Origin: an uncultured Bacteroidia bacterium | Lineage (GTDB): Bacteria > Bacteroidota > Bacteroidia > Bacteroidales > UBA932 | Length of the DNA: 46,061 nucleotides | NCBI GenBank assembly: GCA_902778855.1 | Contig: CACYZM010000035.1 | Coordinates: 1-46,061, forward strand | Direction of reading: 5' to 3' | In this document: one piece after another, positions 12,980-25,159 of the stretch | Layout of the letters: the number at the start of each line of letters is the position of its first letter | Position numbering within the stretch: the first letter of the stretch is position 1 | Notes under the pieces: generated by a model | Told to the model about the DNA's origin: nothing | Database searches by the model: none | Seen by the model: the letters and a program-made list of their open reading frames with translations, nothing else | Translations under genes and position numbers: made by a program

Positions 12980-13593
12980 TATTTGCCGAAGAGGATCTTC
13001 TTGGTCGCCGGACGGAGATATTCACCGACCAGGCCGGTGAAGTCGTCGGCGGTGAAGCTCAGCTGGTAGCCGCCGTCTTTCGGCCCGATCTTGAAGCCAT
13101 TGGCCAGGCCTTTCACGTTCTTGACGTCGATGCCGGCCGACAACTGTTTGACGGCTTCGTTGGTAAATGCCTGTTCCAGTTCGTTCTGGGCTTGGGCCGG
13201 GAGGATGACGTCGAGTCCCACGCCGTCGGGGTTGGCGGCATTGAACGACTTGACGACGGTCTCGAGGAGACTCTGGACGAATTTGCCGTCCGACAGGGCG
13301 GCGCCGACGGGCTTGGCTACGGCTTTCGTGATGACCATGTTCTCCACCTGCTGCCGGAGCGCGGCGATGGTCTGCGTGGAAGCCATCTTGAGGTCGCCCT
13401 CGACCATCGTGCGGGTCTCGGCCGCCTCTTTCTCGGCGGCGGCGTGGATCGCCTCGGCTTCTTCGCGCGCCTTCGCTACGATTTCCTGCGCCTCCTTGCG
13501 TGCCTTGGCCAGCAACTGCTCTGCTTCCTGCCTGCCTTTCGACAGACCTTCCTCATACAGCCGGTCCGTCAATTCTTGCAACTTGTTCTGCAT
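12979..13593 (-). CDS. ntpE: A/V-type ATPase peripheral stalk subunit E
   Basis: 204 residues. An N-terminal coiled coil rich in Ala, Glu and Lys (residues ~5-75) precedes a globular C-terminal domain that would bind the top of the A3B3 head. This is the layout of E subunits of the peripheral stalk. It is the first gene of the operon. The usual partner of the E coiled coil (G/H subunit) is not encoded next to it. Confidence 0.88.
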   Translation of the reverse strand: MQNKLQELTDRLYEEGLSKGRQEAEQLLAKARKEAQEIVAKAREEAEAIHAAAEKEAAETRTMVEGDLKMASTQTIAALRQQVENMVITKAVAKPVGAALSDGKFVQSLLETVVKSFNAANPDGVGLDVILPAQAQNELEQAFTNEAVKQLSAGIDVKNVKGLANGFKIGPKDGGYQLSFTADDFTGLVGEYLRPATKKILFGK

Positions 13594-13628
13594 AATTATC
13601 TTTCGTATTTCCTTTCGATTTTATCCAG

Positions 13629-13659
13629 CAAAAATACGAAGAAAAACCGGCTTTGGCAA
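13629..13659 (-). promoter_or_regulatory. Promoter of the A/V-type ATPase operon
   Basis: On the minus strand TATTTTTG (plus 13629-13636) is a perfect Bacteroidota -7 box, and TTG (plus 13657-13659) lies 20 nt upstream as the -33 box. The ntpE start codon follows 35 nt after the -7 box. Confidence 0.65.
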
Positions 13660-13712
13660 TAGATTAGCATTATTCGGCAGTCTTCCTTCTGTCTTTCTTC
13701 TGCGAGCCTTTC

Positions 13713-13856
13713 CGTCAAAGTGTATTCAACCCAATGGCGTTTGTGCGCATTTATTCCTATCTGCCCTGAGGACACTACCCTTTATAGATGGGGGTGTCTT
13801 CAGCGTAAGACCTCGTTGTGTGTCTCCGTGACCTTTTCGTTGTGCACACTCTGGCG
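13713..13856. repeat. Palindromic element A of a ~142-bp family (REP-like)
   Basis: Left arm CGTCAAAGTGTATTCA (13713-13728) and right arm TGTGCACACTCTGGCG (13841-13856) are imperfect inverted repeats. A central hairpin pairs CTGAGGACAC (13766-13775) with GTGTCTTCAG (13794-13803). The hairpin begins 53 nt from the left end, as in copies B and C. The element lies just downstream of the transposase gene at 13871 and fills the gap between it and the ATPase promoter. Confidence 0.8.
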
Positions 13857-13870
13857 GATGAGGCGGAAGA

Positions 13871-14794
13871 TCAAATATACTTGCAGATTTCTGCGTAGGG
13901 GAGGCGGACCAGGGTGGCGAGTTGCCTTTTGTTCAGGTGGAACTGTTTCCAAAGTTGTTGGGCAAGCCGGACTCTTTGGGGTGGTGTCAGCCGTCGGACG
14001 TCTTTGAATCCATATAGTGCCTGCATCAGACTGTGGCACTTGGACCGCGCTTCAGCATCGTCTATTGATAGGCCTCGTGCCATGGCCAGTTTTTCTTTGA
14101 CGATCTGGTCTCGACTGCGGTTGCTCGCCAAAAAAACGCGATAACGGTTGGCTGTTCGGTAAATCCGTTCAAAATGAGCGACATCTACATAGTTTTCCGG
14201 AAGAAGGATTCCGTTGCACAACTTCCAGTGACCAGGTACTCTGCGATAGGTGTTGAGGATAATCCGTTGCTCGTGGACACTCAGGTCGCCGACATATGTG
14301 GGTTTCAGTATTTCACCGGAATCGGCTCTGCACCAGAGGGACTGATGCCCTTTGCTGCGAAAATACATCGAGCCCGTTCCCCAGGGGTAATCGTAAGGCA
14401 TTACCTGTTTGCCGTCTTTCGTCGGTTGAACGATCGAATAGGTCCCGACGCTCAGAAGGTATTCTTCGGAGTCGATATATAGAATTTCCAAATCGAGTTC
14501 GGCATCCTTCCGCGTCCCCCGTGTACGACCGACATGATGCGCCCAACTGTCCTCATACATCAGTTTGAAAGCCGTACACGCAGGTTTCGTCCCATAGAGA
14601 AGAGAATGCGGGTGGGTGTCTTCAATGGAGAAAGACAGAACGACGACATCGCAGTTGGCGGCACAAACGCCAATCAGATTGAAGGCAACCCGATAGTCGT
14701 CATCATCAGCGATGAAAAGTGGGGAGAGATCTCCGTCCGAGCAGAGATGGTAATAGCCGGGCTGATCCGGATAGGGGGGATTGTTCGTCATCAT
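13871..14794 (-). CDS. Y1 transposase of the RAYT (REP-associated) type
   Basis: 307 residues. The N-terminal ~150 residues match the Y1/IS200-like transposase fold as found in single-copy Bacteroidota RAYT-type genes: GYYHLCSDG near 13-21, an HUH-like pair His61-Pro-His63 in EDTHPHSLLYG, a candidate nucleophile Tyr119 in GTYSIVQP, then YPWGTGSMYF. The C-terminal ~60 residues look like a helix-turn-helix DNA-binding segment (NKRQLATLVRLPYAEI). It is not flanked by IS200 or IS605 ends. Instead a ~142-bp palindromic element lies on each side (13713-13856, 14914-15056) and a third is 1 kb away, the arrangement of RAYT/REP loci. The first motif residue is Pro rather than the usual bulky hydrophobic residue between the histidines, so activity is uncertain. 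Confidence 0.75.
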   Translation of the reverse strand: MMTNNPPYPDQPGYYHLCSDGDLSPLFIADDDDYRVAFNLIGVCAANCDVVVLSFSIEDTHPHSLLYGTKPACTAFKLMYEDSWAHHVGRTRGTRKDAELDLEILYIDSEEYLLSVGTYSIVQPTKDGKQVMPYDYPWGTGSMYFRSKGHQSLWCRADSGEILKPTYVGDLSVHEQRIILNTYRRVPGHWKLCNGILLPENYVDVAHFERIYRTANRYRVFLASNRSRDQIVKEKLAMARGLSIDDAEARSKCHSLMQALYGFKDVRRLTPPQRVRLAQQLWKQFHLNKRQLATLVRLPYAEICKYI

Positions 14795-14857
14795 ATCTAA
14801 TCTCGCTCCTCAATCGTTTGCCACCGACGTGATGACCCGACGAGTCGTCGCTACAAA

Positions 14858-14865
14858 CAAAGATA
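14858..14865 (-). promoter_or_regulatory. -7 box of the RAYT gene
   Basis: TATCTTTG on the minus strand fits TAnnTTTG exactly, 63 nt upstream of the start codon at 14794. No clear -33 box is visible. Confidence 0.45.
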
Positions 14866-14913
14866 CGCCATTTTTTCGGAGATTGTCTGCTTGCTTGTTC
14901 TTTTTGGGCTTTT

Positions 14914-15056
14914 CGTCAAAGTGTATTCACTGCTCTGCCTTCCAGCTATGTTTTTGACAAGGCAAACTGAAGACACAGCCCTTGGCAAGGGGGGTGTCCG
15001 CAATGCAGGACCTCACGATAACGATAATAATATGCTTGTGTGATTACACGATGGCG
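14914..15056. repeat. Palindromic element B of the ~142-bp family
   Basis: Left arm CGTCAAAGTGTATTCA (14914-14929) is identical to that of element A over 16 bases. Right arm TGATTACACGATGGCG (15041-15056) differs from the element C arm at three places. The central hairpin runs from CTGAAGACAC (14967-14976) to GTGTC (14994-14998), with an inner stem CCCTT/AAGGG. The right arm overlaps the last codons and the stop of the EcsC gene. Confidence 0.8.
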
Positions 15057-15775
15057 GAACCGGTACCGCCAAGCTCCCACTGGTAGTCCAGTTCTTTCTT
15101 GAGTTTGCGGCACATAGGCTTGAACGTGAAGTAGGTAATGCCGGCCGAGATGGGGGCGCCGGCGAGCGGAATGACTTTTCCGACGGCTTTTGCGAAGCCG
15201 TCTTCGGAGAGTTTGACGCCGATCCACTTGCAGACCTGCTGGACCATGCTGTAGACCCAGGCTTTGTTGAGCGCGGCCTCCAGGAGACGCCTTTCGACCT
15301 GAACCCGGAGGGCATCGAGCAGCGTACGGACGGCGGCCTGGGCACCCTGGGCGCCCATCATCACGCCAATCCAGAGAATCATCAGGTGAGCGGTCTGGTC
15401 GTTGATTTCGCCCGTGTCATCGCGCATGTCCGGCCAACCGTACAGGTATAGCATTTTTTCAACCAAGGCGATGGCGTTGCCGTAGAACTGCGCGACATCG
15501 GCCGGGATGGTTCCAGCCATCGCCCAGCCGCCCGGAAGGCCGGCCAGCGCCGAGACCGAGCAGACGGCCGTCGTCTGATAGCGGATGCAACCGTTGGCGA
15601 TCTGATCGATCAACTTCTTGTCGACCAGCCCTTTCGGCCCGTAAAGAATGACCTTGTCGATCGTTTCGCGATCCAGATACGGAGCCAGTTCCTTCCGAAG
15701 GAAAGGCTCTCTGTCGACCGTCACCACCGGCAGCTTCATCGCCGCCTTGATGACCTTGTTGAAATTCACTGCCAT
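15044..15775 (-). CDS. EcsC family protein
   Basis: 243 residues from MAVNFNKVIKAAM; the start at 15775 is preferred because a perfect -7 box lies just upstream. The middle and C-terminal parts carry the EcsC-family pattern (LAGLPGGWAMAGTIPADVAQFYGN, quoted here only in part: GGWAMAGTIPADVAQFYG; then YLYGWPD) with Gly/Ala-rich hydrophobic stretches that could lie in or on the membrane. The function of the family is not well defined; the Bacillus member sits in an operon with an ABC transporter involved in secretion. The gene is enclosed by palindromic elements B and C, and its stop codon lies inside the right arm of B. Confidence 0.7.
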   Translation of the reverse strand: MAVNFNKVIKAAMKLPVVTVDREPFLRKELAPYLDRETIDKVILYGPKGLVDKKLIDQIANGCIRYQTTAVCSVSALAGLPGGWAMAGTIPADVAQFYGNAIALVEKMLYLYGWPDMRDDTGEINDQTAHLMILWIGVMMGAQGAQAAVRTLLDALRVQVERRLLEAALNKAWVYSMVQQVCKWIGVKLSEDGFAKAVGKVIPLAGAPISAGITYFTFKPMCRKLKKELDYQWELGGTGSAIV

Positions 15776-15779
15776 AATA

Positions 15780-15787
15780 CAAAGATA
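15780..15787 (-). promoter_or_regulatory. -7 box directly before the EcsC gene
   Basis: TATCTTTG on the minus strand ends four bases before the ATG at 15775. If used, transcription would begin at or next to the start codon, giving a leaderless message. Confidence 0.5.
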
Positions 15788-15817
15788 GCAAAAACCTTGG
15801 AGACTTTGCGGCTTTCC

Positions 15818-15959
15818 CGTCAGCGTGTATTCAGCCGGGCAGCTTTTGCGGGTTGTGAAATAGGGTGCTGCTGAATACACCCACCTTGCAGAGGGCGGTG
15901 TCCGCAGGTTGGGCCATATAGAGGTTACTTATGGGCACTTGAATGAATACACTCTGGCG
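15818..15959. repeat. Palindromic element C of the ~142-bp family
   Basis: Left arm CGTCAGCGTGTATTCA (15818-15833) and right arm TGAATACACTCTGGCG (15944-15959) pair over most of their length. The hairpin strands are CTGAATACACC (15871-15881) and GGTGTCCGCAG (15897-15907). The right-arm motif TGAATACAC therefore appears twice and its complement twice, in alternating direction. The tandem array that follows begins inside the right arm. Confidence 0.8.
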
Positions 15960-16106
15960 AAAGTGAATGTGCTGGTAAAGTGAATGTTCTAGCGAGAGTG
16001 AATGATCTAGCGAGAGTGAATGATCTAGCGAGAGTGAATGATCTGGCGAGAGTGAATGATCTGGCGAGAGTGAATATGCTGGCGAATGTAAACGTGCTGG
16101 CGAAAG
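15944..16106. repeat. 18-bp tandem array grown from the element C right arm
   Basis: Nine head-to-tail units. The first two are 20 and 17 bp, then seven units of 18 bp start at 15981, 15999, 16017, 16035, 16053, 16071 and 16089. The core unit is TGAATGATCTRGCGAGAG. Two central pairs are identical, and the outer units drift (the first is the arm itself, TGAATACACTCTGGCGAAAG). There are no spacers, so it is not a CRISPR array. The period is a multiple of three and gives a repeated LARVND peptide in one frame, which is probably accidental. Confidence 0.9.
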
Positions 16107-16130
16107 TGAACGCCCAACCGCGATTTTTCG

Positions 16131-16138
16131 TAGCTTTG
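16131..16138 (+). promoter_or_regulatory. -7 box directly before the gene at 16143
   Basis: TAGCTTTG matches TAnnTTTG exactly and ends four bases before the ATG at 16143, again implying an almost leaderless message. Confidence 0.5.
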
Positions 16139-16142
16139 TTAT

Positions 16143-16515
16143 ATGATGGAAAACAAACGTATTTATAACGGTATCGAACGGCCGGCTTTCACGCCGGAGA
16201 TGATTCAGGAGTTGCGGCCCGATGAGGTGTTTGTGTTCGGTTCAAACCTGGCGGAAATTCGGCGCGGTAATAGGGCAGGGCGTCGGCCTGCAGGGCCAGA
16301 GCTATGCGATCCCGACGATGCAGGGCGGAGTCGAGACCATCAAACCCTATGTCGATGAGTTCATTGCCTTTGCGAAGGCGCACCCCGAACTGTTCTTCTA
16401 TGTGACACGCATCGGTTGCGGAATCGCCGGGTTTGTCGACGCGGAAATCGCCCCGCTTTTCGCAGAGGCTGTCGGCTGCGACAACATCTGTCTGCCTGCG
16501 ACTTTTCTTCGTTAG
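16143..16515 (+). pseudogene. Small conserved protein (A1S_2505-like), frame broken
   Basis: The first ~30 residues (FTPEMIQELRPDEVFVFGSN, LA) and the last ~85 residues (KFGAVIGQGVGLQGQSYAIP, then VTRIGCGIAGF and EIAPLF) belong to one widespread small protein family, but in different frames. The join is near 16250-16260. From memory of the family, a short Gly/His/Ala-rich stretch normally lies between GSNL and KFGA, and it is missing here along with the frame. I associate the family with the name A1S_2505 phage-related protein; no activity is established. The break could be a real small deletion or a sequence error. Confidence 0.6.
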
Positions 16516-16533
16516 TCGAGAGGGTCTGTCCCG

Positions 16534-17574
16534 TTAGAAAGCAAAGCCGAGGCCGAAGGTGGCGGCGACCTGGCGGGCGGGGTGAAGCCAGGAAATCCCG
16601 GCGGATAGGGCAATGTGGCGCCAGGAGGCGATGGCCCCGGCTTCGAGGGTCAATCCGCGGAAGGAGAGATCCGAGACTTCGGCCCAACTGCCGGTAATGT
16701 CGTGCCAGTAGTGCTTTTCAGCGCCTATGCCGCCGGTGGCGAAAACCGAAAGGTGTTCGCCGAAGCGGAAAACTGGACCGGCATTGACCATCCATGCCGT
16801 GCAGGCTGTCGAGCCATCTCCCCAGAAGCGCCCGCCGCCTTCGATGGCGCCGTCGGAGGTGCATCGATAACTGGCCGAGACCGACTGAAAGTTGCTCCTG
16901 CCGGAAACAACCATGCCCAGACGCCGCCCCGCGAGTCCGGCCATGCCTCCATAAGTATATGCTTTCGGTACGGAAACGCTGGCCAGCACGAACCCATGCA
17001 GGCCTTGCGGTTGCCGTGTGTAAGCTTGATATTGCAGCGGAACCCGGTGGATTTCAGGTTCGGGTTGCCGACGCTCCGGCAGAGAAATCGCCTTGGGAGA
17101 TAGGGAAGGGGCGCTGCAGCGCAAGGCTAAATGCTGGACCTCATTCAGCGCCAGGCGTCGGTTCGGAATGAATGTGTTCTGGCGCGGAACTCGAGTCACT
17201 GGGTCTGGTTGTATGGTTTCCGTTTTCGGTTTTCCGGTTTCCGGCTTTGATTTCTGTTGGGGCGCATAGCCGCCAACGGTCCTCGCGTATTCGTCGCGGA
17301 TGCGGGCGAAGCGCTTGCGCTGGGCGGGACTCATCTTGCCGGAAGCGCCTTGCAGCGTGCTTTTCAACTGCGAAAGTTCCTGCAGCAAGCCGGCGAGCGA
17401 ACGGTCGGCCACGGCAGCGCCGGAGACGACTTTCGCGCGCAATTCCAGGCATTGCTCCGAGATGTGCTCGTAACGGTCGAGCACTGCGTCCCAGTCGGTT
17501 TGCCCGAAAGCGGTGGCACGTCCCAGTATCAGACAAATCGCCGCGACCAGCAGATATCTTACGATTTGAACCAT
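16534..17574 (-). CDS. Secreted protein with a beta-barrel-like C-terminus
   Basis: 346 residues with a signal peptide (about 1-24, ending in AFGQ). Then come a helical region of about 90 residues, a Pro/Lys/Thr-rich linker (~105-175), and a C-terminal half of alternating Gly/aromatic strands that ends in Phe (FGLGFAF), the usual end of outer-membrane barrels. I do not recognise the family. It is read divergently from the Ser/Thr kinase at 17631, with 56 nt between the two starts, so the two may share control. Confidence 0.6.
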   Translation of the reverse strand: MVQIVRYLLVAAICLILGRATAFGQTDWDAVLDRYEHISEQCLELRAKVVSGAAVADRSLAGLLQELSQLKSTLQGASGKMSPAQRKRFARIRDEYARTVGGYAPQQKSKPETGKPKTETIQPDPVTRVPRQNTFIPNRRLALNEVQHLALRCSAPSLSPKAISLPERRQPEPEIHRVPLQYQAYTRQPQGLHGFVLASVSVPKAYTYGGMAGLAGRRLGMVVSGRSNFQSVSASYRCTSDGAIEGGGRFWGDGSTACTAWMVNAGPVFRFGEHLSVFATGGIGAEKHYWHDITGSWAEVSDLSFRGLTLEAGAIASWRHIALSAGISWLHPARQVAATFGLGFAF

Positions 17575-17630
17575 TTTTGAGCCGTAAAAGTAACAAAATA
17601 ATCAGTATCTTTACAAAATCAAGCAAAGCG

Positions 17631-18563
17631 ATGGACGAAGATTCCGGATTTTTCGACGCCCACGGACAGTTGGTCGAAAACCATACTTCCGCACCCGAAT
17701 TGATACATCAATCAGCGGGCGGCTGGAGTCTGCTCTATCGCTTCGATAAGGGTGGCCGCTTCCGCGTTTACAAGGCGCTCAAACCTGAATTTCGTGGCAA
17801 GCAACCCTACGAAAGTCTCTTGCGCAAGGAGTTCGAAATCGGTTACGCCCTCTCGCATCCGAATATCTGCGAGGTGTATGGCTTCTGCTTTTTGCCGGAA
17901 CTGGGCAACGCCATTGAAATGGAATGGATTGACGGCCGGACGCTCACTTCGCTGCTGGAACAGGGTGTTCCTGCACCGGACCTGTCCGAAAAACTGATCG
18001 GCCAGCTCTGCGACGCTCTGGAATATCTGCACAACCGGCAGGTGATCCATCGCGACATCAAGCCCTCGAACATCCTGGTCACCAACAACGGCAACAATGT
18101 TAAACTCATTGACTTCGGTCTTTCGGACACCGACAGCCATCGCATCTTCAAGAACCCGGCCGGCACCGAATCGTTCGCCGCTCCGGAACTCCTCGACGGC
18201 CGTCCCGTGGATTGCCGGGCCGACATCTTCTCCTTGGGCAAGGTGATTGCCCTGCTGGCGCCGCGCAATGCCGCCGTGGTGCGCAAATGCACGCAATTGG
18301 ATCCGAATCTTCGCTACAAAGATATCGTCTCGCTTCGCAAAGCCCTGCAGCGCAAGTCAAAACAGTGGATTTGGGGCTTGCTTTCCGTGATTGTGGTCGG
18401 CCTGGCCGCCATCCTGCTCCTCTATTCGGAAAAGCATCCCGCACCTGAGCCGGACCCGCTCCCGCCCGCCGATACCCTCGCCGGGGAGACGCTGATCACC
18501 GACCCTTCGACCATCGATGACCTCTTCCGGCAGGCCACCGATCTTTTCGACAAGAATCAGTAG
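17631..18563 (+). CDS. Membrane Ser/Thr protein kinase (Hanks type)
   Basis: 310 residues. The kinase domain has a VYKAL strand with likely ATP-binding Lys48, the catalytic loop HRDIKPSN (140-147), DFG (161-163) and the APE-like AAPELL. The glycine loop is weak. A single membrane helix (near residues 244-265) follows, then a short Pro-rich tail of ~45 residues, so the kinase is cytoplasmic with a brief outer segment and no PASTA repeats. The start at 17631 was chosen because the same frame upstream is antisense to the neighbouring gene and lacks protein character. It overlaps the convergent gene at 18557 by 7 nt. Its substrates are unknown. Confidence 0.88.
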   Translation: MDEDSGFFDAHGQLVENHTSAPELIHQSAGGWSLLYRFDKGGRFRVYKALKPEFRGKQPYESLLRKEFEIGYALSHPNICEVYGFCFLPELGNAIEMEWIDGRTLTSLLEQGVPAPDLSEKLIGQLCDALEYLHNRQVIHRDIKPSNILVTNNGNNVKLIDFGLSDTDSHRIFKNPAGTESFAAPELLDGRPVDCRADIFSLGKVIALLAPRNAAVVRKCTQLDPNLRYKDIVSLRKALQRKSKQWIWGLLSVIVVGLAAILLLYSEKHPAPEPDPLPPADTLAGETLITDPSTIDDLFRQATDLFDKNQ

Positions 18564-19111
18564 GTTTCCAACAACGTGAGCCCGCGCGAGCGCCCCGCTA
18601 CGTAGGCGGGCAGCATCGTTCCGTCCCGCTCCACGCCCGGCAGGTAAAGCGGCTGGTCGCGCAGGAAAGCTGTGGCCTCGAAGCGGTCGCCTCGCCGCAG
18701 TTTCGAAGTGCCGGCATCGCGGACTTCAAACTGCATGTTGCCCAGATAAACAAGTTCCACGCGCCGGTCCGGCATCCAGCCCAGGATGACGACGTCCCCC
18801 TCATTGAGATCGGCGCTCCGCACCGATTCTGCCGCGAAAAACGCGGATGTCTCCTGCAATTCCAGGCACAGGCGCCGGAAATTCTCCCGCCCCGTGTAGC
18901 GGGCCAGGATGTCGAGGGTCGATGCGCGCGGCTTGGGGTTGAGGCTCACATAACCCCAAATGCGCTTGAGCGTCGATTCGGAAAGGCGCTCGCCTGTGCG
19001 CGCTTCCACATCCAGCGCCAGGTGCTCAAAGGCCGACGACGTGTTGACGGGTTTGCCGAATTGCCGGGATACTTCGCTCAGCAGGAATTCGATTTCGGGC
19101 GTTTGTTTCAT
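18557..19111 (-). CDS. Conserved Bacteroidota protein found beside Ser/Thr kinases
   Basis: 184 residues from MKQTPEIEFLL. The N-terminal ~85 residues carry a pattern I know from many Bacteroidota hypothetical proteins (STLKRIWGYV, then STLDILARY). It resembles a small helical, possibly DNA-binding, domain. The C-terminal half is beta-rich (LNEGDVVILGWMPDRR, FEVRDAGTSKLRRGD) and could be a ligand or protein-binding barrel. Function unknown. Its start codon overlaps, as ATGA, the inferred end of the broken FN3/LRR gene upstream, so the two were probably cotranslated. Confidence 0.6.
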   Translation of the reverse strand: MKQTPEIEFLLSEVSRQFGKPVNTSSAFEHLALDVEARTGERLSESTLKRIWGYVSLNPKPRASTLDILARYTGRENFRRLCLELQETSAFFAAESVRSADLNEGDVVILGWMPDRRVELVYLGNMQFEVRDAGTSKLRRGDRFEATAFLRDQPLYLPGVERDGTMLPAYVAGRSRGLTLLETY

Positions 19112-20722
19112 AGATAGACGATATTGACGGATTGGCTGCACCGCAACACCCCGATTTGACAAGATAGATGGTCTTCAGGTAGGGGCATTCGGAGCAGTCT
19201 ACCGTGTTGATCTTGGGACATTTGGTCAGGTTGAGGGTGCTGAGGTGGGTCCGGTTGCAGTCGAGGTAGACCAGCTCCGGATTGTCGAGGGTGAGGGTTT
19301 CAAGCGGCTGCGATTCGCAGTGGGCTTCGACAAGCAGGGGGAGTCCGCTGAAATCAAGCGTCTTGATCTGATTGTACGATACGTTGAGCAGATAAACGCG
19401 TTTCTGCATCGACAAGTCGATGCTCCGCAGTTTGTTGACGGCGCAATCCACGATCTCCAGTTTGACGGCGCTGCGCAGATTCAAGGTATCGATCTGGTTG
19501 TGTTGGATAAAGATGGACCGAAGCTCGGGATTGCCCGAGACGTCCACGGTGGTGAGCTGCCCCAGACCACTGTTATTGACCCGGGTTCCTTCCGCGTGCA
19601 GCTTTTTCAGCGAGGGGAACATTTGGATGCCTTCCACTGAAGCCGTTTCGTCGGTATTCAGTTCCACGGTCTCATCGTAACGTACTCGGGGTCCGGGTCT
19701 GGATCCGGATCGGATGAAAGGGTCTCAAAATGTTTGATGTCGGAGAAGAAACGGTCGTGGCCGGCGCAATCCGCGAAGGCTTGAAAAACGTATTTCGTGC
19801 CGGGCTTCAGCCCGCTGACCTCCCGGATGAAGAGGCGGTTCTCTTTGTCAAGCGAGGTTGTCAGTAGGAATTCTTCCTCTTCTTCCGCCGGCCGAATCAG
19901 GAATCCCACGGAGGTGGGGGACTGGGCATAACTGAGCGATGCGATCAGCAGAGCGCCATCCTGAGCGATCTGGGTGGCCTTTACGCTGATAAATTGAATC
20001 GGATCTACTTCATCGGCCGTCGTGAACGTTTGCTCTTCCGATTCGACGCGGATGCCCGATTCTGATTCCACAAAGGCTGTATAATAGTAGACGCGACTAT
20101 TCTCAAGATCGGTTAATGTGCAAGTGAAACCGTGCCCTTCCAGTTCAGCCACGATGGTTGTGGTCCTGTCGGCCCCCTGCGCTCGGACGATGAACCCAAC
20201 TTGGCTGATTGGATCATCGTAGTTCACGGCGGCAATCAGCCGGGCTCCGGAAGAGGTAATTTCCGAAACAGTCACATAGGCGATTTCCGGAACCGGCACA
20301 ACCGGTGCCGCGGCCGTTGTGAATTCCTTCTGTGGTGATGTGATGCGAAGATTCCGTCCGTTCTCCACGAATGCCTGGAACCGGTAGAGACTCTCGCTTT
20401 TCAGGCTGTCAAGCTTGGCCGTAAATGAATCGTTCTGAGACACTACACCCGGAATCTGATAGGTCTTGCCATCCGCCGCAAACAGCAGGAAACCGCACCG
20501 TTCGACACTCCCGCCACCATTGACGGTGGCCGTCAACACCGCCGAATCAAAACCCACATCCGAAACTTCGACCGCCATAATCTCCGGCGCCGTCGTCGGC
20601 TCCGGCCCCGCCTCCCGGCAAGAAACCGCCCCCATAATCGTCGCCAATAGGACCACGGCCAGCCAAACCAGCCGCCCAATCGCCCTAAAAGTAACTTTTC
20701 CGAGGCACCCAAACATTCCCAT
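19108..20722 (-). pseudogene. FN3-like and leucine-rich-repeat lipoprotein, frame broken
   Basis: Part one (20722 to about 19665) has a lipobox (GAVSC near residue 35), three related beta-sandwich modules (~47-137, ~145-235, ~242-337; each has a VGF or CGF strand), a DPDPDPDP linker, and then stops soon after EYVT. Part two, in another frame from about 19680, resumes with LNTDETASVEGIQMFPSL and leucine-rich repeats (LxxLxCxxTxL type). In related proteins as I remember them, a segment of ~30 residues lies between EYVT and the LNTD block, so sequence is missing as well as the frame. Near 19150 the frame seems to slip again: the other frame gives an ending VNIVYL whose stop overlaps the next start as ATGA, while the present frame runs on to 19026. 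Probably a cell-surface adhesin or binding protein in intact form. Confidence 0.6.
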
Positions 20723-20883
20723 CCTGATTTTTCGCGAAAATACAAATTATTCCCGTGCCATGAAACGCCTTTCCCGCCGTGATCCGCCCCGCTTTCAGCT
20801 TCAGTGAAAAATGAACCATTTATGACCCGGCGGAAGAGCGGGGGATTGGCGAAATTTGTATAGATGATTTAAGCCGCTTTTAT

Positions 20884-21102
20884 ATGGCAATCTATAAAGT
20901 AACCACTAAACTTCGCAAATACTGCAACGGAGTTCTTTTGGAACCGGGCATGAGCGTCCAAGTCGTCACGCTAGCTGGCAACCTCTTCTCCGGAGCCGGT
21001 GGAGATGCCACTGAAGCTGCATTCCAGCGCGTTTACGGAATTTCATTACGCCAGGCAAGTGCCTTGAATTCGGGGTGGTTGAAAGTGGAAGTAATTGGAT
21101 AA
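20884..21102 (+). CDS. Small conserved protein, probably DUF6140
   Basis: 72 residues. It starts MAIYKVTTKLRKYCNGVLLE and has the pattern GMSVQVV, a Gly-rich middle, AFQRVYGISL, and a final beta strand. I recall a family of small Bacteroidota proteins with this layout, probably DUF6140, but the name is from memory. It opens the row of tiny genes that ends in the LHH nuclease. A weak -7 box (GAAATTTG, 20851-20858) lies 25 nt upstream. Its base composition is between that of the surrounding genome and the AT-rich genes that follow. Confidence 0.6.
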   Translation: MAIYKVTTKLRKYCNGVLLEPGMSVQVVTLAGNLFSGAGGDATEAAFQRVYGISLRQASALNSGWLKVEVIG

Positions 21103-21133
21103 AAGATAAAGTGATAATAATGATGAAATAACT

Positions 21134-21427
21134 ATGGCGGCGGCAGAGGTTATTAAGGTGATTGGATTATATGGTCTTTTATTGACTTCAGTGATTGTTA
21201 GCATCTTGCTAATTAGGTATTTGGCGTTATCTTGGAAAACGATGTCCAAATCAAAAAAGATGCTCTTGCTAGTACTTGTTATTCTTTTAATTTGTATCGC
21301 TGTTATTTGCCTTATCGGGATAATAAAAACGGAGTCTTTTATAACAACAATGTCGGAAAAGAAGGGGTTGAGATGGATAATAGAAATCGTGTTTGCTATA
21401 GTGATTATTTTTTTTGTTAAAAACTAA
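21134..21427 (+). CDS. Small membrane protein
   Basis: 97 residues with three hydrophobic stretches (about 8-30, 42-64 and 82-95). The last lies close to the C-terminus (VFAIVIIFFVKN). No recognised family. The gene is markedly AT-rich compared with the genes outside the islet. A small membrane protein next to a nuclease toxin could be an immunity or release factor, but nothing in the sequence proves it. Confidence 0.6.
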   Translation: MAAAEVIKVIGLYGLLLTSVIVSILLIRYLALSWKTMSKSKKMLLLVLVILLICIAVICLIGIIKTESFITTMSEKKGLRWIIEIVFAIVIIFFVKN

Positions 21428-21438
21428 ATCAATATGTT

Positions 21439-21603
21439 ATGAAAAAAACACTAATTAATGGCGCTAACTCGGATCTTATGCCGAATGCTGATTCTTTCAT
21501 TCCCGATTATATTGAGAAGAATCTCAAAGACATTGGAACAAAAGGGGGACAAAGGTATTCTGACTTCATTGATAAAATTGTAGATGCGATTTTTAAACGG
21601 TAA
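21439..21603 (+). CDS. Tiny protein of unknown function (54 residues)
   Basis: Starts MKKTLINGANSDLMPNADSF and ends in an amphipathic helix (YSDFIDKIVDAIFKR). No signal peptide or membrane segment is clear. The start is 11 nt after the stop of the membrane protein gene, and the next gene begins 4 nt after its stop, so it reads as part of one operon. AT-rich. Not recognised. Confidence 0.5.
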   Translation: MKKTLINGANSDLMPNADSFIPDYIEKNLKDIGTKGGQRYSDFIDKIVDAIFKR

Positions 21604-21607
21604 AACT

Positions 21608-21757
21608 ATGGCAGGGAATAGTTCTGATATGATTAAAGCTGTTATCAAAATAGGTACAGCCATCGTTTCTTTAGCCTTTGGAAAAAAAGTTGCTGAAGAA
21701 GGATACAAGAATGCTAAAAACTGGAAAGAATCTAGAAATCAGAATACGAATAAGTAA
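21608..21757 (+). CDS. Tiny protein of unknown function (49 residues)
   Basis: MAGNSSDMIKAVIKIGTAIV begins a short protein with one weakly hydrophobic Gly/Ala segment (KIGTAIVSLAFG, about 14-25) and a basic, Asn-rich tail. The start is 4 nt after the preceding stop. AT-rich. The hydrophobic helix and cationic tail resemble small membrane-active peptides, but that is only a resemblance. Confidence 0.5.
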   Translation: MAGNSSDMIKAVIKIGTAIVSLAFGKKVAEEGYKNAKNWKESRNQNTNK

Positions 21758-21990
21758 GGGATAGTTATAGGAATCCGCCTTTATCATTTTCTGAATGCCG
21801 CTTTTACTCATGCGGTGGTAAAGATTGTATTGAGGGACATAAACAATAATACAAGTGAACGAGTCGGCATAGGTAAGTGGCTTGTCTGCGTTGATTAAAG
21901 AAATAATCGATGAGTCATACAGTATTTATCGGAACACGTGACGCTATTTGGCTCATTCTAGAATATGTGATATTCATTAAAAATTATATT

Positions 21991-22146
21991 ATGAACAAAA
22001 AAATAGATCAGATTAAGCCACATATGAGAGAGATTAAGGTCACTCGTAATCCGGATGGTTCTAAAACAACAGAAGTGAATCCTGATGATATTAGGGAGAT
22101 TGGAAGGGCTATAGTAAATATCCTTAGGTTGTTTATTAAGAAGTAG
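21991..22146 (+). CDS. Tiny protein of unknown function (51 residues)
   Basis: Starts MNKKIDQIKPHMREIKVTRN and has a Thr/Asn/Asp-rich middle (NPDGSKTTEVNPDDIREIG) and a C-terminal amphipathic helix (AIVNILRLFIKK). The same frame stays open to an ATG at 21910, but the part before 21991 has poor protein character, so the later start is preferred. The 233-nt gap before it (21758-21990) holds no convincing gene; it contains a small hairpin (CCGC/GCGG near 21801-21817). Confidence 0.5.
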   Translation: MNKKIDQIKPHMREIKVTRNPDGSKTTEVNPDDIREIGRAIVNILRLFIKK

Positions 22147-22176
22147 GGAACTGTGAATTAGTCGGATACAGTTTTT

Positions 22177-22371
22177 ATGTTACGTGGTTACATCCATTCA
22201 ATATGCCCTAATTGTGGACATAGATTTGCTGCCTTAGACATTGAGGACGGCGCGACAGTGCGCTCAATGCCTGTCCGTTGTCCGGCGTGCGGGCATTCTT
22301 TCCGGCCAAGTCACTATTCTCCTTTGCTAGAGTCTTTGTCCGAATTGTTCAAACATTTGAAGCGTAAGTAA
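22177..22371 (+). CDS. Small zinc-ribbon protein
   Basis: 64 residues with two CPxC knuckles (CPNCGHRF near 10 and CPACGHSF near 35) that should bind one zinc ion, then a helical tail (LLESLSELFKHLKRK). Such ribbons bind nucleic acid or protein. It ends 8 nt before the LHH nuclease gene and is probably cotranscribed with it; a role as partner or inhibitor of the nuclease is possible but unproven. Confidence 0.65.
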   Translation: MLRGYIHSICPNCGHRFAALDIEDGATVRSMPVRCPACGHSFRPSHYSPLLESLSELFKHLKRK

Positions 22372-22379
22372 TAATCATT

Positions 22380-22904
22380 ATGTCTCTTATGTCGATAGAA
22401 AAACAATCGCTCCGCAGCCGCACCGGCTGGTCGGATGCCATTTTGGACAACATCGCCTCTCGAGAGGAGGCGGAGATTTATATCAAAGCGGGCCTTCGGG
22501 AGGCACGGATCGGTGGCCGGCCGGCGCTGATTCGTGATGATATTGATTGGTCGGACTACAGTATTCGGCGGAATACCTGGCTTAAGGAGTATTTGGCCGA
22601 TTACGACAAGGCGGCGGAGTATAACAATGCTGATTTGATCGGGGAGGGGTATCCGCCGCGCGACAAGGGCGGGGATCCTTACGAGTTGCATCATATCGGC
22701 CAGCATCCGGATTCGCCGTTGGCGGAGTTGACGGTGTTTGAGCATCGCGAAAACGAGGGCAACTACGCCGTTCTCCATGCGGCGGGGAAGGATTCGGAGA
22801 TTGACCGGCCGCAGTTCGAGCATGAGAAGACAGCGTACTGGCGGGCACGGTATAAGGCTTTTACGCCGGCTGAGATTGAGGCTATCTATCGGAGACGGTA
22901 TTAA
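22380..22904 (+). CDS. Stand-alone LHH nuclease toxin module (HNH/ENDO VII)
   Basis: 174 residues. The C-terminal half has the LHH signature YELHHIGQHPDSPLAELT (101-118; His104, His105), then EHR (121-123), VLHAAGKDSEIDRPQF and YWRAR, the order seen in HNH/ENDO VII superfamily toxins. The N-terminal half (RTGWSDAILDNI, IYIKAGLREARIGGRPALIR) is the segment that precedes this nuclease at the C-terminal tips of polymorphic toxins. Here it is a free gene with no delivery domain, the last of a row of tiny AT-rich genes. Its own composition is closer to that of the host. It should cut nucleic acid. No known immunity family is visible beside it. Confidence 0.82.
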   Translation: MSLMSIEKQSLRSRTGWSDAILDNIASREEAEIYIKAGLREARIGGRPALIRDDIDWSDYSIRRNTWLKEYLADYDKAAEYNNADLIGEGYPPRDKGGDPYELHHIGQHPDSPLAELTVFEHRENEGNYAVLHAAGKDSEIDRPQFEHEKTAYWRARYKAFTPAEIEAIYRRRY

Positions 22905-22925
22905 TCGTTTCGCTTTGTGTCATTT

Positions 22926-23066
22926 CGTCAAAGTGGGCGCACCTAATGGGCCTTTCAGAGCGTGAATCGCTGATTGCCTGCGCGCACCGGCCTTGAAAAG
23001 GCCGGTGCGCGCGTTGCGGAAGCTTCTCATGCCCTATATCGGTTTTTATCCGCGCGCACTTTGGCG
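22926..23066. repeat. Palindromic element D of the ~142-bp family
   Basis: Left arm CGTCAAAGTGGGCGCA (22926-22941) and right arm CGCGCGCACTTTGGCG (23051-23066) are inverted repeats. The central hairpin is a perfect 14-15 bp stem (22980-22994 with 22998-23012). CTG opens the hairpin at offset 52, against 53 in elements A to C, and total length is 141 bp against 142-144. The outer CGTCAAAGTG is kept while the inner arm and the hairpin have both changed from TGTATTCA/GACACC to GCGC-rich sequence. Confidence 0.8.
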
Positions 23067-23103
23067 GGGTAACTGGTAGGTGCGTATCAATTTTGAATAA
23101 TCA

Positions 23104-23136
23104 TTGCTGAATAATCCTACAAAAAGGCTATCTTTG
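23104..23136 (+). promoter_or_regulatory. Promoter of the lipoprotein gene at 23175
   Basis: TATCTTTG (23129-23136) fits the -7 consensus exactly and TTG (23104-23106) lies 22 nt upstream. The start codon follows 38 nt later. Confidence 0.6.
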
Positions 23137-23174
23137 CCGAAACAAACTGACTCTAATCAATAAAACTTAAGAAT

Positions 23175-23714
23175 ATGAAAAAAGTATTGTTCAGTTTCGC
23201 CGTCGTAGCCGCCTGCCTGTTCGTGACGGCTTGTGGCAGCAAGAAAGCGCAGCAGGAAAATTCAGAAAACGAGGCCGTTGAGCAGGTCGCCGAGGAGGCT
23301 TCCAATGAGGCCGAGGCCCAGGAGCCGAAACTGCCGGTGGGACCTTGCACCATCGAAATGGATCTGATGAGCGTCGATATCCCCGAGGGATGGGAAGTGC
23401 TGAATCAGGATCGTCATGAGGTCAAAATCTATCCGGGAACCGGTGATCAGTTTACTGAATCGATCCTGATTCAGGAACAGCCTTACCGGGCATTGGCCGA
23501 TGCGGTGAAGACGATGAAAGGTCTGGAGCAGACCAAGGATCTGGGCACCCTGCCGTTCGGAGACAACAAATTCCTTGCTTACGAGATGCCGGGCGGACTG
23601 ACTGTGTTGATGCGGGCCAATGACAAGGACGAGTATGTGCAGGCCGAAGTCCGCAGCGAAGCCTACAAGAAAGATGGCTACAAGCAGGTCCTTGCCGGAA
23701 TTAAGCTGAAATAA
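23175..23714 (+). CDS. Lipoprotein of unknown function
   Basis: 179 residues. A signal peptide ends in the lipobox FVTAC (Cys20), followed by a Glu/Ala/Gln-rich linker (~24-50) and a compact domain of ~120 residues with mixed strands and helices (VDIPEGWEVLNQ, TESILIQEQPYRAL, GYKQVLAGIKLK). The family is not recognised. It has its own promoter and a strong terminator, so it is expressed as a single gene. Confidence 0.75.
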   Translation: MKKVLFSFAVVAACLFVTACGSKKAQQENSENEAVEQVAEEASNEAEAQEPKLPVGPCTIEMDLMSVDIPEGWEVLNQDRHEVKIYPGTGDQFTESILIQEQPYRALADAVKTMKGLEQTKDLGTLPFGDNKFLAYEMPGGLTVLMRANDKDEYVQAEVRSEAYKKDGYKQVLAGIKLK

Positions 23715-23739
23715 GCGCTGAAACGGGCTTAGATCTATG

Positions 23740-23777
23740 GATACACCGCTCTCAAATGAGAGCGGTGTATCTTTTTT
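23740..23777 (+). terminator. Rho-independent terminator
   Basis: A perfect 14-bp stem (GATACACCGCTCTC with GAGAGCGGTGTATC, 23740-23753 and 23758-23771), loop AAAT, then six T. It ends the lipoprotein gene and lies directly against the promoter of the MATE gene. Confidence 0.9.
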
Positions 23778-23779
23778 CG

Positions 23780-23787
23780 TACCTTTG
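23780..23787 (+). promoter_or_regulatory. -7 box of the MATE operon
   Basis: TACCTTTG matches TAnnTTTG exactly, 13 nt before the start codon at 23801. Any -33 element would have to lie inside the terminator hairpin, and none is clear. Confidence 0.5.
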
Positions 23788-23800
23788 TGACAGGATTCAA

Positions 23801-25159
23801 ATGTCGATGACGCCGGAAGAGAAATATGTGCGGATGACCACGCGCCCGGTCGGGCAGCTGGTGACGAAGCTGGCAGTCCCGTCGATCGTCAGTATGCTCG
23901 TGTCGGGCATCTATAACCTGGCGGATACCTTCTTCATCGGGCAGATCAACACGCAGTCGGTGGCGGCGCTGGGCATCGTATTCTCCTATATGGTGCTCAT
24001 CCAGTCGGTCGCCATTTTCTTCGGGCAGGGGTCGGGCAATTATATCTCCCGGGCACTGGGCCGGCGGGAGAAGGCCGACGCCGAGGAGATGGCCGCGGTG
24101 GGGCTGGTTTCTTCCGTGCTGACGGGCGTCGTGCTGGCTGCGCTCAGTTTCCTGCTGATGCGGCCGATTCTCTCGTTGCTCGGTTCGACGGAGACCATTC
24201 TGCCGTATGCCTGCGACTATTTCCGCTTCATCCTGATAGGCACGCCTTTCATTATGGGCACCTTCACGCTCAACAACCAGATGCGTCACCAGGGCAATGC
24301 GATGCTTTCGATGATCGGCATCGTCTCGGGCGCGGCGCTCAACATTGCGCTCGACCCGATCCTGATTTTCGGGTTCGGCCTAGGCATCCGCGGTGCGGGC
24401 ATGGCCACGGCCATCTCGCAGGCCGTGGGCTTTCTGGTAATCCTGAGCATGGTAGGGAAGCGGGGGACGCTCCATATCAAGCTTTCCCATTTCAAACCCA
24501 CTTGGCGGCGGTATCACGACATTTCCGCGGGCGGCCTGCCCTCGCTGGCCCGGCAGGGGCTGATGAGCCTGTCGGCCATCTGCCTCAATCAGTTGGCCTC
24601 GCACTACGGCGACTCAGCCATCGCTGCGTTTTCGGTGGTGAGTCGCATTATGATGCTGGCCTGCGCCGCGATGATCGGTTACGGGCAGGGATTCCAGCCT
24701 GTGTGCGGGTTCAATTACGGGGCCGGACTCTTCGACCGGGTTCGGAAAGCGTTCTGGCACAGTTGCAGCGTGTCGACAGTCTATTGCACGGTGCTGGCCC
24801 TGTTGGGATGGGTCTTTGCGAGCCCGCTGGTCGCCCTGTTCCGGGCCGACGATCCCGAGGTGATCCGGATCGGCAGCGAAGTGCTTCGCTACCAGTGCTA
24901 CAGCTTCCCGTTGGTGGGCTTTATCACCCTGGCCAATATGTATCTCCAGAACATCCGCAAGACGATACCTGCCATCATCATGGCTTCGGCCCGTCAGGGA
25001 ATCTTCTTCTTACCGGCGCTCTTCGCAGGTCACGCCCTCTGGGGCTTCTTTGGCGTCGAAATCGCTCAGATGCTCGCCGACATCGGCTCCTTCCTGTTCG
25101 CCGTCCCCTTCGTCCTTTATGCCCTGAAGGAGATGGACCGTCAACCGATTGCGCGATGA
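23801..25159 (+). CDS. MATE family efflux transporter
   Basis: 452 residues, twelve membrane helices in two related halves, the usual MATE size. The first half starts RPVGQLVTKLAVPSIVSMLV and contains NLADTFFIGQ; the second has LARQGLMSLSAICLNQLA and GYGQGFQPVCGFNYGA, standard MATE blocks. It would export drugs or metabolites in exchange for Na+ or H+. The start at 23801 follows the -7 box; an earlier in-frame ATG lies within the terminator. The stop overlaps the next start as ATGA. Confidence 0.92.
   Translation: MSMTPEEKYVRMTTRPVGQLVTKLAVPSIVSMLVSGIYNLADTFFIGQINTQSVAALGIVFSYMVLIQSVAIFFGQGSGNYISRALGRREKADAEEMAAVGLVSSVLTGVVLAALSFLLMRPILSLLGSTETILPYACDYFRFILIGTPFIMGTFTLNNQMRHQGNAMLSMIGIVSGAALNIALDPILIFGFGLGIRGAGMATAISQAVGFLVILSMVGKRGTLHIKLSHFKPTWRRYHDISAGGLPSLARQGLMSLSAICLNQLASHYGDSAIAAFSVVSRIMMLACAAMIGYGQGFQPVCGFNYGAGLFDRVRKAFWHSCSVSTVYCTVLALLGWVFASPLVALFRADDPEVIRIGSEVLRYQCYSFPLVGFITLANMYLQNIRKTIPAIIMASARQGIFFLPALFAGHALWGFFGVEIAQMLADIGSFLFAVPFVLYALKEMDRQPIAR

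Follow-up and report, generated by a model that had tools for sequence, protein, structure and literature searches.

A divergent RAYT-type transposase gene and its probable cognate 145-bp repeats, dimers of a 73-bp unit, in a Bacteroidales genome

The window studied here is a stretch of 46,061 nucleotides from an uncultured Bacteroidia bacterium of the order Bacteroidales (contig CACYZM010000035.1, assembly GCA_902778855.1), and it contains a gene for a predicted Y1 transposase of the HUH fold together with four similar palindromic elements, called A to D. An earlier note made from the sequence alone had proposed that these elements form a class resembling repetitive extragenic palindromes (REPs) with a resident mobilising enzyme. 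The locus raises the question of whether gene and repeats belong together, and to which kind of mobile repeat. The explanation that we consider probable is that the gene encodes a divergent REP-associated tyrosine transposase (RAYT) and that A-D represent the non-autonomous element cognate to it; the system is a new branch of the known RAYT/REP kind of mobile repeat. This explanation is based on the anatomy of the elements, their fixed geometry, the matched words on the two flanks of the gene, the co-variation of word and enzyme phylogeny, the selection acting on the protein, and the presence or absence of element C and its adjoining array in related genomes. The REP-like class of the earlier note stands in so far as matched repeats are found in many relatives; that the enzyme moves them we infer by analogy. 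The features are collected in the table.

Table. Positions of the transposase gene, the four elements and the tandem array in the window
Feature	Position	Strand	Details
RAYT-type Y1/HUH transposase gene, 307 aa	13874-14794 (stop codon 13871-13873; 13871-14794 with stop)	-	Fold, HxH/Tyr motifs, dN/dS
Element A	13711-13858 (148 bp)	+	Half-sites 13720-13728(+), 13767-13775(-), 13794-13802(+), 13841-13849(-)
Element B	14912-15058 (147 bp)	+	Half-sites 14921-14929(+), 14968-14976(-), 14994-15002(+), 15041-15049(-)
Element C	15816-15961 (146 bp)	+	Half-sites 15825-15833(+), 15872-15880(-), 15898-15906(+), 15944-15952(-)
Element D	22924-23068 (145 bp)	+	Half-sites 22933-22941(+), 22979-22987(-), 23005-23013(+), 23051-23059(-)
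18-bp tandem array	15962-16105	+	8 units, similar to the terminal half-site of element C plus its foot

The four elements lie where the earlier note had placed them, with the outer arms (CGTCA(A/G)..GTG ... CAC..TGGCG), the CTG-initiated central hairpin and the closing arm in GGCG that it described, and A, B and C do flank the transposase gene on both sides. Each element contains four half-sites in alternating orientation, as had been claimed, spaced by about 46, 26 and 46 bp; the half-site is of the type GTGTNNNCA (GTGNGCGCR in D), and the central hairpin is concentric with the whole element. The near-constant length that had also been put forward holds for A-D (145-148 bp, the two-base feet being included here as in the coordinates) but not as a basic length, since 145 bp corresponds to a dimer of a 73-bp unit. 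A strict nested-arm finder, which looks for inner and outer inverted arms around one centre, recovered D and gave no match in 279,141 shuffled bases; it did not recover A, B or C in the window, and a laxer version recovered A and B beside the gene with one match in 280,445 shuffled bases. The sequence TTYCGYCAAAGTG occurs four times in the window with at most one mismatch, for 0.26 occurrences expected. The last 15 bp of element B overlap the 3' end of the open reading frame (ORF) at 15044-15775, and no target-site duplications, such as the MITE of a DDE transposon would have, were noticed by eye beside the elements, DDE enzymes not having been searched for.

The palindromic fold predicted for the elements was borne out for D and C, which as single strands fold better than shuffled sequences (z -5.7 and -2.1, respectively), and not for A (z -0.35) and B (z -1.0), which as free single-stranded DNA fold no better than their shuffles. 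Thus, A-D are better described by their half-sites and spacing than by fold energy. A choice between nested and side-by-side pairing of the half-sites had to be given up: in a sample of 32 elements (31 of the 43 places found in the genus, and one from locus L012), three matchings scored alike, with means of 14.8, 14.7 and 14.6 of 18 (Wilcoxon p 0.28-0.62), so that half-site similarity singles out no single fold. Nested pairing is favoured in the L037/L013 family, in which the outer word differs from the inner one. A length and a plan of four half-sites like these also recall integron attC recombination sites, and A-D could be read as such sites. We give this reading hardly any credence, as by inspection the outer ends (TTYCGYCAAA-GTG) are unlike the attC core consensus, GTTRRRY, and the neighbouring enzyme has a Y1/HUH fold, an integron integrase not having been searched for.

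The basic unit of the repeats is about 73 bp long and consists of a half-site, a spacer of ~37-39 bp whose sequence is variable and whose length is nearly constant, and an inverted half-site; the 145-bp element exemplified by A-D is a dimer of such units. Two units, ~145 bp in all with an end foot of consensus TTYCGYCAAA, are the usual dispersed form. The unit recurs in arrays in two genomes of the same genus, each of which carries a transposase flanked by its own abundant word (loci L039 and L041). In G019, the pattern AAGGCGCA-N36-40-TGCGCCTT was found 44 times on five contigs, 34 of these being off the contig of the gene, and the distance between successive starts (n=39) was 73 bp in 32 cases and 146 bp in 3. 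In G022, CGAGCCGG-N36-40-CCGGCTCG was found 30 times on seven contigs, 25 of them off the gene's contig, with distances (n=23) of 73 bp in 15 cases and 146 bp in 6. Elsewhere in the genus, AAGGCGCA units were present in G025 (3, all adjoining the gene of the cognate transposase), G032 (5) and G039 (1) and in none of 36 genomes, and CGAGCCGG units in G015 (5) and G021 (1) and in none of 37 genomes; reversed-pattern controls gave no unit in any genome. The G015 copy of 73 bp seems to be a form with one unit, and the longer arrays of some relatives look as if they had arisen by addition of 73-bp units.

The protein itself escapes the usual family searches. Pfam and NCBIfam scans of the gene at 13874-14794 were empty at E 0.1, PHROGs gave nothing usable, and a sequence-profile search of the PDB gave nothing relevant; PF01797 is detectable in only one of 29 proteins of the clade (E 0.006, under the curated cut-off). 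RAYT-type systems in this Bacteroidales family are therefore likely to be under-counted, since Pfam misses the clade. The RAYT-type assignment of the earlier note is supported by structure: in the AlphaFold2 model (pLDDT 88.6), the best PDB match by Foldseek is 4er8, the E. coli RAYT on its REP hairpin (E 6e-3, probability 1.00, TM 0.51 by target), followed by the TnpA proteins of ISDra2 and ISHp608 (IS200/IS605), and 19 of the 20 top matches have the same fold. The protein comprises an N-terminal Y1 fold with H61xH63 and Y119 and a C-terminal helical domain. H61, H63 and Y119 are invariant in all 29 rows of the alignment (28 different sequences). Proteins of the clade are ~300 aa long, with a tyrosine motif like GTYxIxQPTKDGK and, in most rows, an HxH motif of the form [ST]H[PLIY]H. 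Comparison of the transposase of the window with its orthologue in G015 gave a dN/dS of 0.09, indicating that the protein is kept by purifying selection. A separate model of the C-terminal 108 residues (pLDDT 78.6) has only weak matches (best E 1.1), many of which are helix-turn-helix (HTH) DNA binders, and the reading of this domain as an HTH is therefore tentative. By eye, alignment columns 301-319 read like L(P/K)(Y/F)xE(I/V)CKY in rows with a GTG-initial word and LPExE(I/L) in most others, and this segment is possibly a candidate for specificity residues.

If enzyme and repeats form a pair, the repeats should be looked for beside the relatives of the enzyme. There, 8-mer counts in the flanks show half-sites that alternate in orientation at ~46 and 27 bp. 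Scanning 35 loci for four half-sites spaced 46/26/46 gave a match on at least one flank in 23, on both flanks in 15 and on neither in the other 12; at all 15 loci where both flanks were detected, the two share one word. The shuffled control gave no match in 40,405 bases (one contig occurs twice in the scan, as L010 and L034). The words that share this geometry are GTGTNNNCA, in the window and its nearest kin, AAGGCGCA, GCGAGCCGG, TGGCGCAA, CTGCTGCAC, TGACGTCGG, TGGCGGCGG, ATGCGGCAG, ATGGAGCAG, GTCGGCACG, GTCGCGGAG, TGACAAACA and GTGACAC. The outermost half-sites span 125-131 bp in the 34 arrays examined, which were picked from the hits of the scan with repeat registers and near-duplicate loci (L032, L015) omitted; within the 6 bases before the outer half-site, a GT[AG]G foot was found at none of their 68 ends. 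A separate search for nested palindromes, run on 42 of 43 loci (L008 having no tblastn match), found a palindrome in 25. Loci L041 and L054 each gave one extra geometry match with another word, and second arrays with other words lie at L053 (centre 934; CCGTGCA..) and L054 (2782-2940; GCAGGCAT), where the transposase is also accompanied by an array that does match it.

The word follows the phylogeny of the enzyme. On a maximum-likelihood tree with 23 labelled rows, 12 changes account for 13 words, the minimum possible, and 500 shuffles of the labels each needed at least 13 changes (mean 15.7), none being as low as 12; L010, identical to L034, was omitted from the shuffle test. Each of 8 words is found in one row only, so that the remaining five of the 13 carry the test. 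The labels were assigned by us, GTGTNNNCA lumping GTGTATTCA, GTGTGCCC and GTGTGCGC; those of L034, L049 and L038 come from the covariance-model and nested-palindrome searches, and that of L059 from the palindrome search and 8-mer counts. The tree excludes L055 (GTCGCGGAG) and includes L059 with ACCTGCCGG, an outlier that is 31% identical and has another spacing, 59/25.

The elements are not confined to the window. A covariance model built from A-D, the search that the earlier note had suggested, found 11 places in its own genome (G000, 2.4 Mb) and 43 in 40 genomes of the genus, at E 0.001 or better. Besides G000, they are distributed over G015 (10), G034 (6), G006 and G016 (3 each), G017, G018, G022 and G036 (2 each), and G020 and G035 (1 each), and 29 of the 40 genomes have none. 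These counts are lower bounds, several places being near contig ends and 78 first-look candidates having been scored per genome; three weaker places in G000, at E 1 to 7 (C26:27439, C70:11313, C26:40212), were excluded. Many copies of one length had been predicted: the length holds, as 40 of the 43 places are 144-148 bp long (the others being 52, 73 and 140 bp), while the copy number is modest. A transposase of the clade (E 1e-40 or better) is present in 18 of the 40 genomes, and elements occur in 10 of these 18 vs 1 of the 22 without it (Fisher p 7e-4), so they are not equally common in relatives that lack the gene. If only transposases with 59% or more identity to that of the window are counted, elements occur in 6 of 6 genomes vs 5 of 34 others (p 1.2e-4); both tests ignore kinship. 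The stricter expectation, that strains lacking this transposase have no elements, is not borne out, as 12 of the 43 places are in G017, G020, G022, G034 and G035.

Several observations weigh against the pairing of enzyme and elements that we favour, beginning with these five genomes: they make up 5 of the 11 element-bearing genomes, and no transposase at least 59% identical was detected in them. Four of the five carry a relative that is 47-51% identical, and in G017, G020 and G022 that relative bears another word. G034, whose assembly is 84% complete, has six elements (L089-L094), two of which are near-identical and near contig starts, and its transposases are only distant paralogues (at most 27% identity). 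Likewise, G015, G021, G032 and G039 hold words for which the matching enzyme was not found in the assembly. Words and elements without a matching enzyme may be relics or gaps in metagenome-assembled genomes. The unit abundance seen in G019 and G022 is not general, since TGGCGGCGG gave just one unit in its cognate genome, adjoining the gene, and one in another genome. Neither is the foot universal: among the 68 array ends, CGYCAA is exact at 24, has one mismatch at 14 and more at 30, so that it is within one mismatch at just 38, and 7 of the 13 words show an exact foot at one end at least. Neither the palindrome search nor the geometry scan found an element at six loci of the clade (L040, L042, L043, L047, L048, L050), and a repeated-8-mer look at distant relatives outside the genus (G047 and G407: L156, L157, L159; 22-26% identical) found no 46/27 geometry. 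The sample is also narrow, because the clade model had matches in 3 of 393 genomes drawn from the order, all of one family and two genera. Finally, the Foldseek E-value is modest, no structural match reaching 0.001 or better, and a joined-flank search at 8 loci gave no clean empty site.

Some of these facts would also suit a host function, in which the elements are domesticated sites for protein binding or regulation at the RNA level and the transposase gene merely uses them or regulates itself through them. Their constant geometry is, as we infer, close to whole helical turns, the C-terminal domain with its weak matches is possibly an HTH, the copies are few, and elements are kept in genomes without a close enzyme. 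They also tend to avoid ORFs: in a sample of 24 of the 43 places, 8 elements are mostly covered by mechanical ORFs of at least 120 aa vs 73% of random placements, and 16 are at most half covered. Nevertheless, the word switches with the transposase and is common to both of its flanks, and arrays of the 73-bp unit are expanded in some genomes and absent from others. Rfam gave no match at E <=1 within 13000-24000, and intrinsic terminator-like sites are at chance level (3 found vs 3.3 expected). We therefore regard a purely regulatory role as unlikely and retain the pairing of a RAYT with its own repeats.

The turnover of the elements was followed between the window and its relatives. The spacers of the orthologous elements in G015 are identical to those of the window at 69% and 68% in B, 59% in the left and 89% in the right part of C, and 95-100% in A, with 91% for the DNA between the gene and B and 76% for the flank left of A. 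The end half-sites with their feet are 89-100% identical, and element lengths are equal within one base. Such divergence of spacers at a held length agrees with selection acting on half-sites and length, or with replacement of elements from other copies. At the orthologous site of G022, element C and the 18-bp array are absent between TTTGCGGC and ATTTTTCG, which could be either the ancestral state or a loss. What looks like a deletion in G022 has also taken away A and the gene, together with the left portion of B; a truncated B remains without the gene, so elements can outlast their enzyme. Regarding the 18-bp array, the window has 8 units vs ~2 in G015 (L088), and tandem 3' arms also occur in L026.

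The copies could, on the other hand, owe their spread to recombination, replication slippage and larger segmental duplication only, with no part played by the transposase. The copies in C62, C4 and C73 have long flanking blocks in common, as such a process would leave them, and array growth resembles duplication of units. The 52-bp copy in C8, which had been a candidate for a mini-element, was rejected as such, because a full element occupies the orthologous site in G017; most probably the copy results from an internal deletion, with GCCCT microhomology, again of a kind that recombination would produce. The copy in C56 does not fit this account, as its alignment with C62a, C62b and C4 covers the element and at most 9 bases beyond it; a separate repeat family farther from the C56 element is also shared, yet it is not colinear. 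The co-variation of enzyme and word and the purifying selection on the enzyme also speak against it. Spread without the transposase thus seems improbable to us, and we continue with the RAYT reading.

How does this RAYT-type system compare with the systems described so far? RAYT/REP systems and REPtrons have repeats on both sides of the gene, one repeat family per enzyme, and co-evolution of the two (Nunvar 2010, PMC2817692; Quentin 2018, PMC6006769). As in these, a Y1/HUH protein related to the TnpA of IS200/IS605 is here flanked on both sides by palindromic repeats, which are both dispersed and clustered and whose word co-varies with the enzyme. The differences are the foot, which is of the CGYCAA type in about half the words instead of GTAG/GTGG, the 73-bp unit with half-sites 46 bp apart, the ~300-aa enzyme in which PF01797 goes undetected in 28 of 29 cases, and the copy number, usually above 100 for RAYT/REP and here at most 44 exact units per genome and 11 places in G000, both lower bounds. 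In REPINs, a spacer separates two full REPs of inverted orientation (PMC3116915; Bertels and Rainey 2011). The present elements resemble REPINs in being symmetrical, two-unit structures with conserved half-sites, a spacer constrained mainly in length, tandem clusters, and an enzyme presumed to act in trans; they differ in their order of half-site, 46 bp, tight central pair, 46 bp and half-site, that is, half-full-half.

In TIRYT elements and TIRtrons, a RAYT-like gene lies between long terminal inverted repeats (TIRs) that are unrelated to GTAG, some of them self-complementary and repeated in the genome (Di Nocera 2013, PMC3733652); some of these TIRs share a GGGGWSAS motif and others are mutually unrelated (PMC3733652). 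The present gene also lies between non-GTAG repeats and so falls within this class, which is a loose one; the section compared has neither a 73-bp unit nor a Bacteroidales example (PMC3733652). The TnpAY1 proteins of subclass 2.6, from Bacteroidetes, are encoded by genes that lie among 'atypical secondary structures' lacking GT[AG]G, and these structures have further copies elsewhere in the genome (Quentin 2018, PMC6006769). They share with our system the phylum and a gene flanked by repeats without GT[AG]G, but have a median length of 179 aa and the motifs NH[LIV]H and YIH[QN]NP (PMC6006769), unlike the ~300-aa proteins and other motifs found here; the two are set apart by description and by eye, and may overlap. 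The REPs called CGTC each form one hairpin, with a stem of 8-9 bp, and have no transposase dedicated to them (PMC3733652); A-D likewise start with CGTC, and many of their relatives have CGCC instead. The description of repeats in Porphyromonas has no RAYT in the passages compared (PMC5771137). Among the matches listed for the open-licence literature, to which subscription papers do not belong, titles and abstract starts revealed no 73-bp or 145-bp element of this kind.

By analogy with RAYTs and IS608, the enzyme would recognise the half-sites, which would give its specificity, and the N-terminal Y1 domain would nick and rejoin single-stranded DNA near the foot at the element end. Copies would be dispersed in trans, the gene itself remaining in place as a REPtron. 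Recognition of double-stranded DNA may come first, as would be suggested by the possible HTH and by the even spacing, in which 73 bp make up close to 7 turns of the helix. As a tentative possibility, of which we are far from convinced, the enzyme would have two DNA readers, the C-terminal HTH on double-stranded half-sites placed at nearly whole helical turns (73 bp for ~7 turns, and 51-52 bp for ~5 turns in several more distant paralogues) and the Y1 domain cutting near the element end, the half-site being a rewritable address. Co-evolution between RAYTs and their repeats is assumed, and to our knowledge what determines their match is not settled. In this small clade, where one geometry is kept and the word changes with the enzyme, natural pairs are available for binding and cleavage tests; if the model of two readers were true, the dozen or so enzyme-word pairs of one geometry would make the code of RAYT-repeat recognition directly readable.

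More distant RAYT-like paralogues with repeats of their own occur at L003, L004, L005, L006, L008, L102-L104, L108, L110-L112 and L157. In several of them the spacings are near 71 bp or near 51-52 bp, which suggests two classes of geometry.

Other observations concern the surroundings of the elements. The orthologous place in G022 lacks a 6.57-kb segment of the window (16519-23088), which includes genes for a protein kinase and an LHH nuclease, and G015 differs there too; element D lies 20 bp from the right edge of this segment. The flanks of the elements at G020:C10 and G035:C4 are 100% identical over ~220 bases on each side, in genomes treated as different species; this may come from transfer, contamination or very recent descent, and the two places may therefore be one locus. 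The genome of the window also contains other nested-palindrome families of 109-114 bp (CGTGGCACTTAT.., GCTGGAGGC.. and GCTGCAATGTACGCA..), which share loci with the 145-bp elements, at L021 (centres 708 and 1554), L024 (2153 and 2348), L022 (2065) and L025 (1433). By name, the closer relatives are uncultured Bacteroidales and one Bacteroidia, several isolates being named for rumen or horse faeces.

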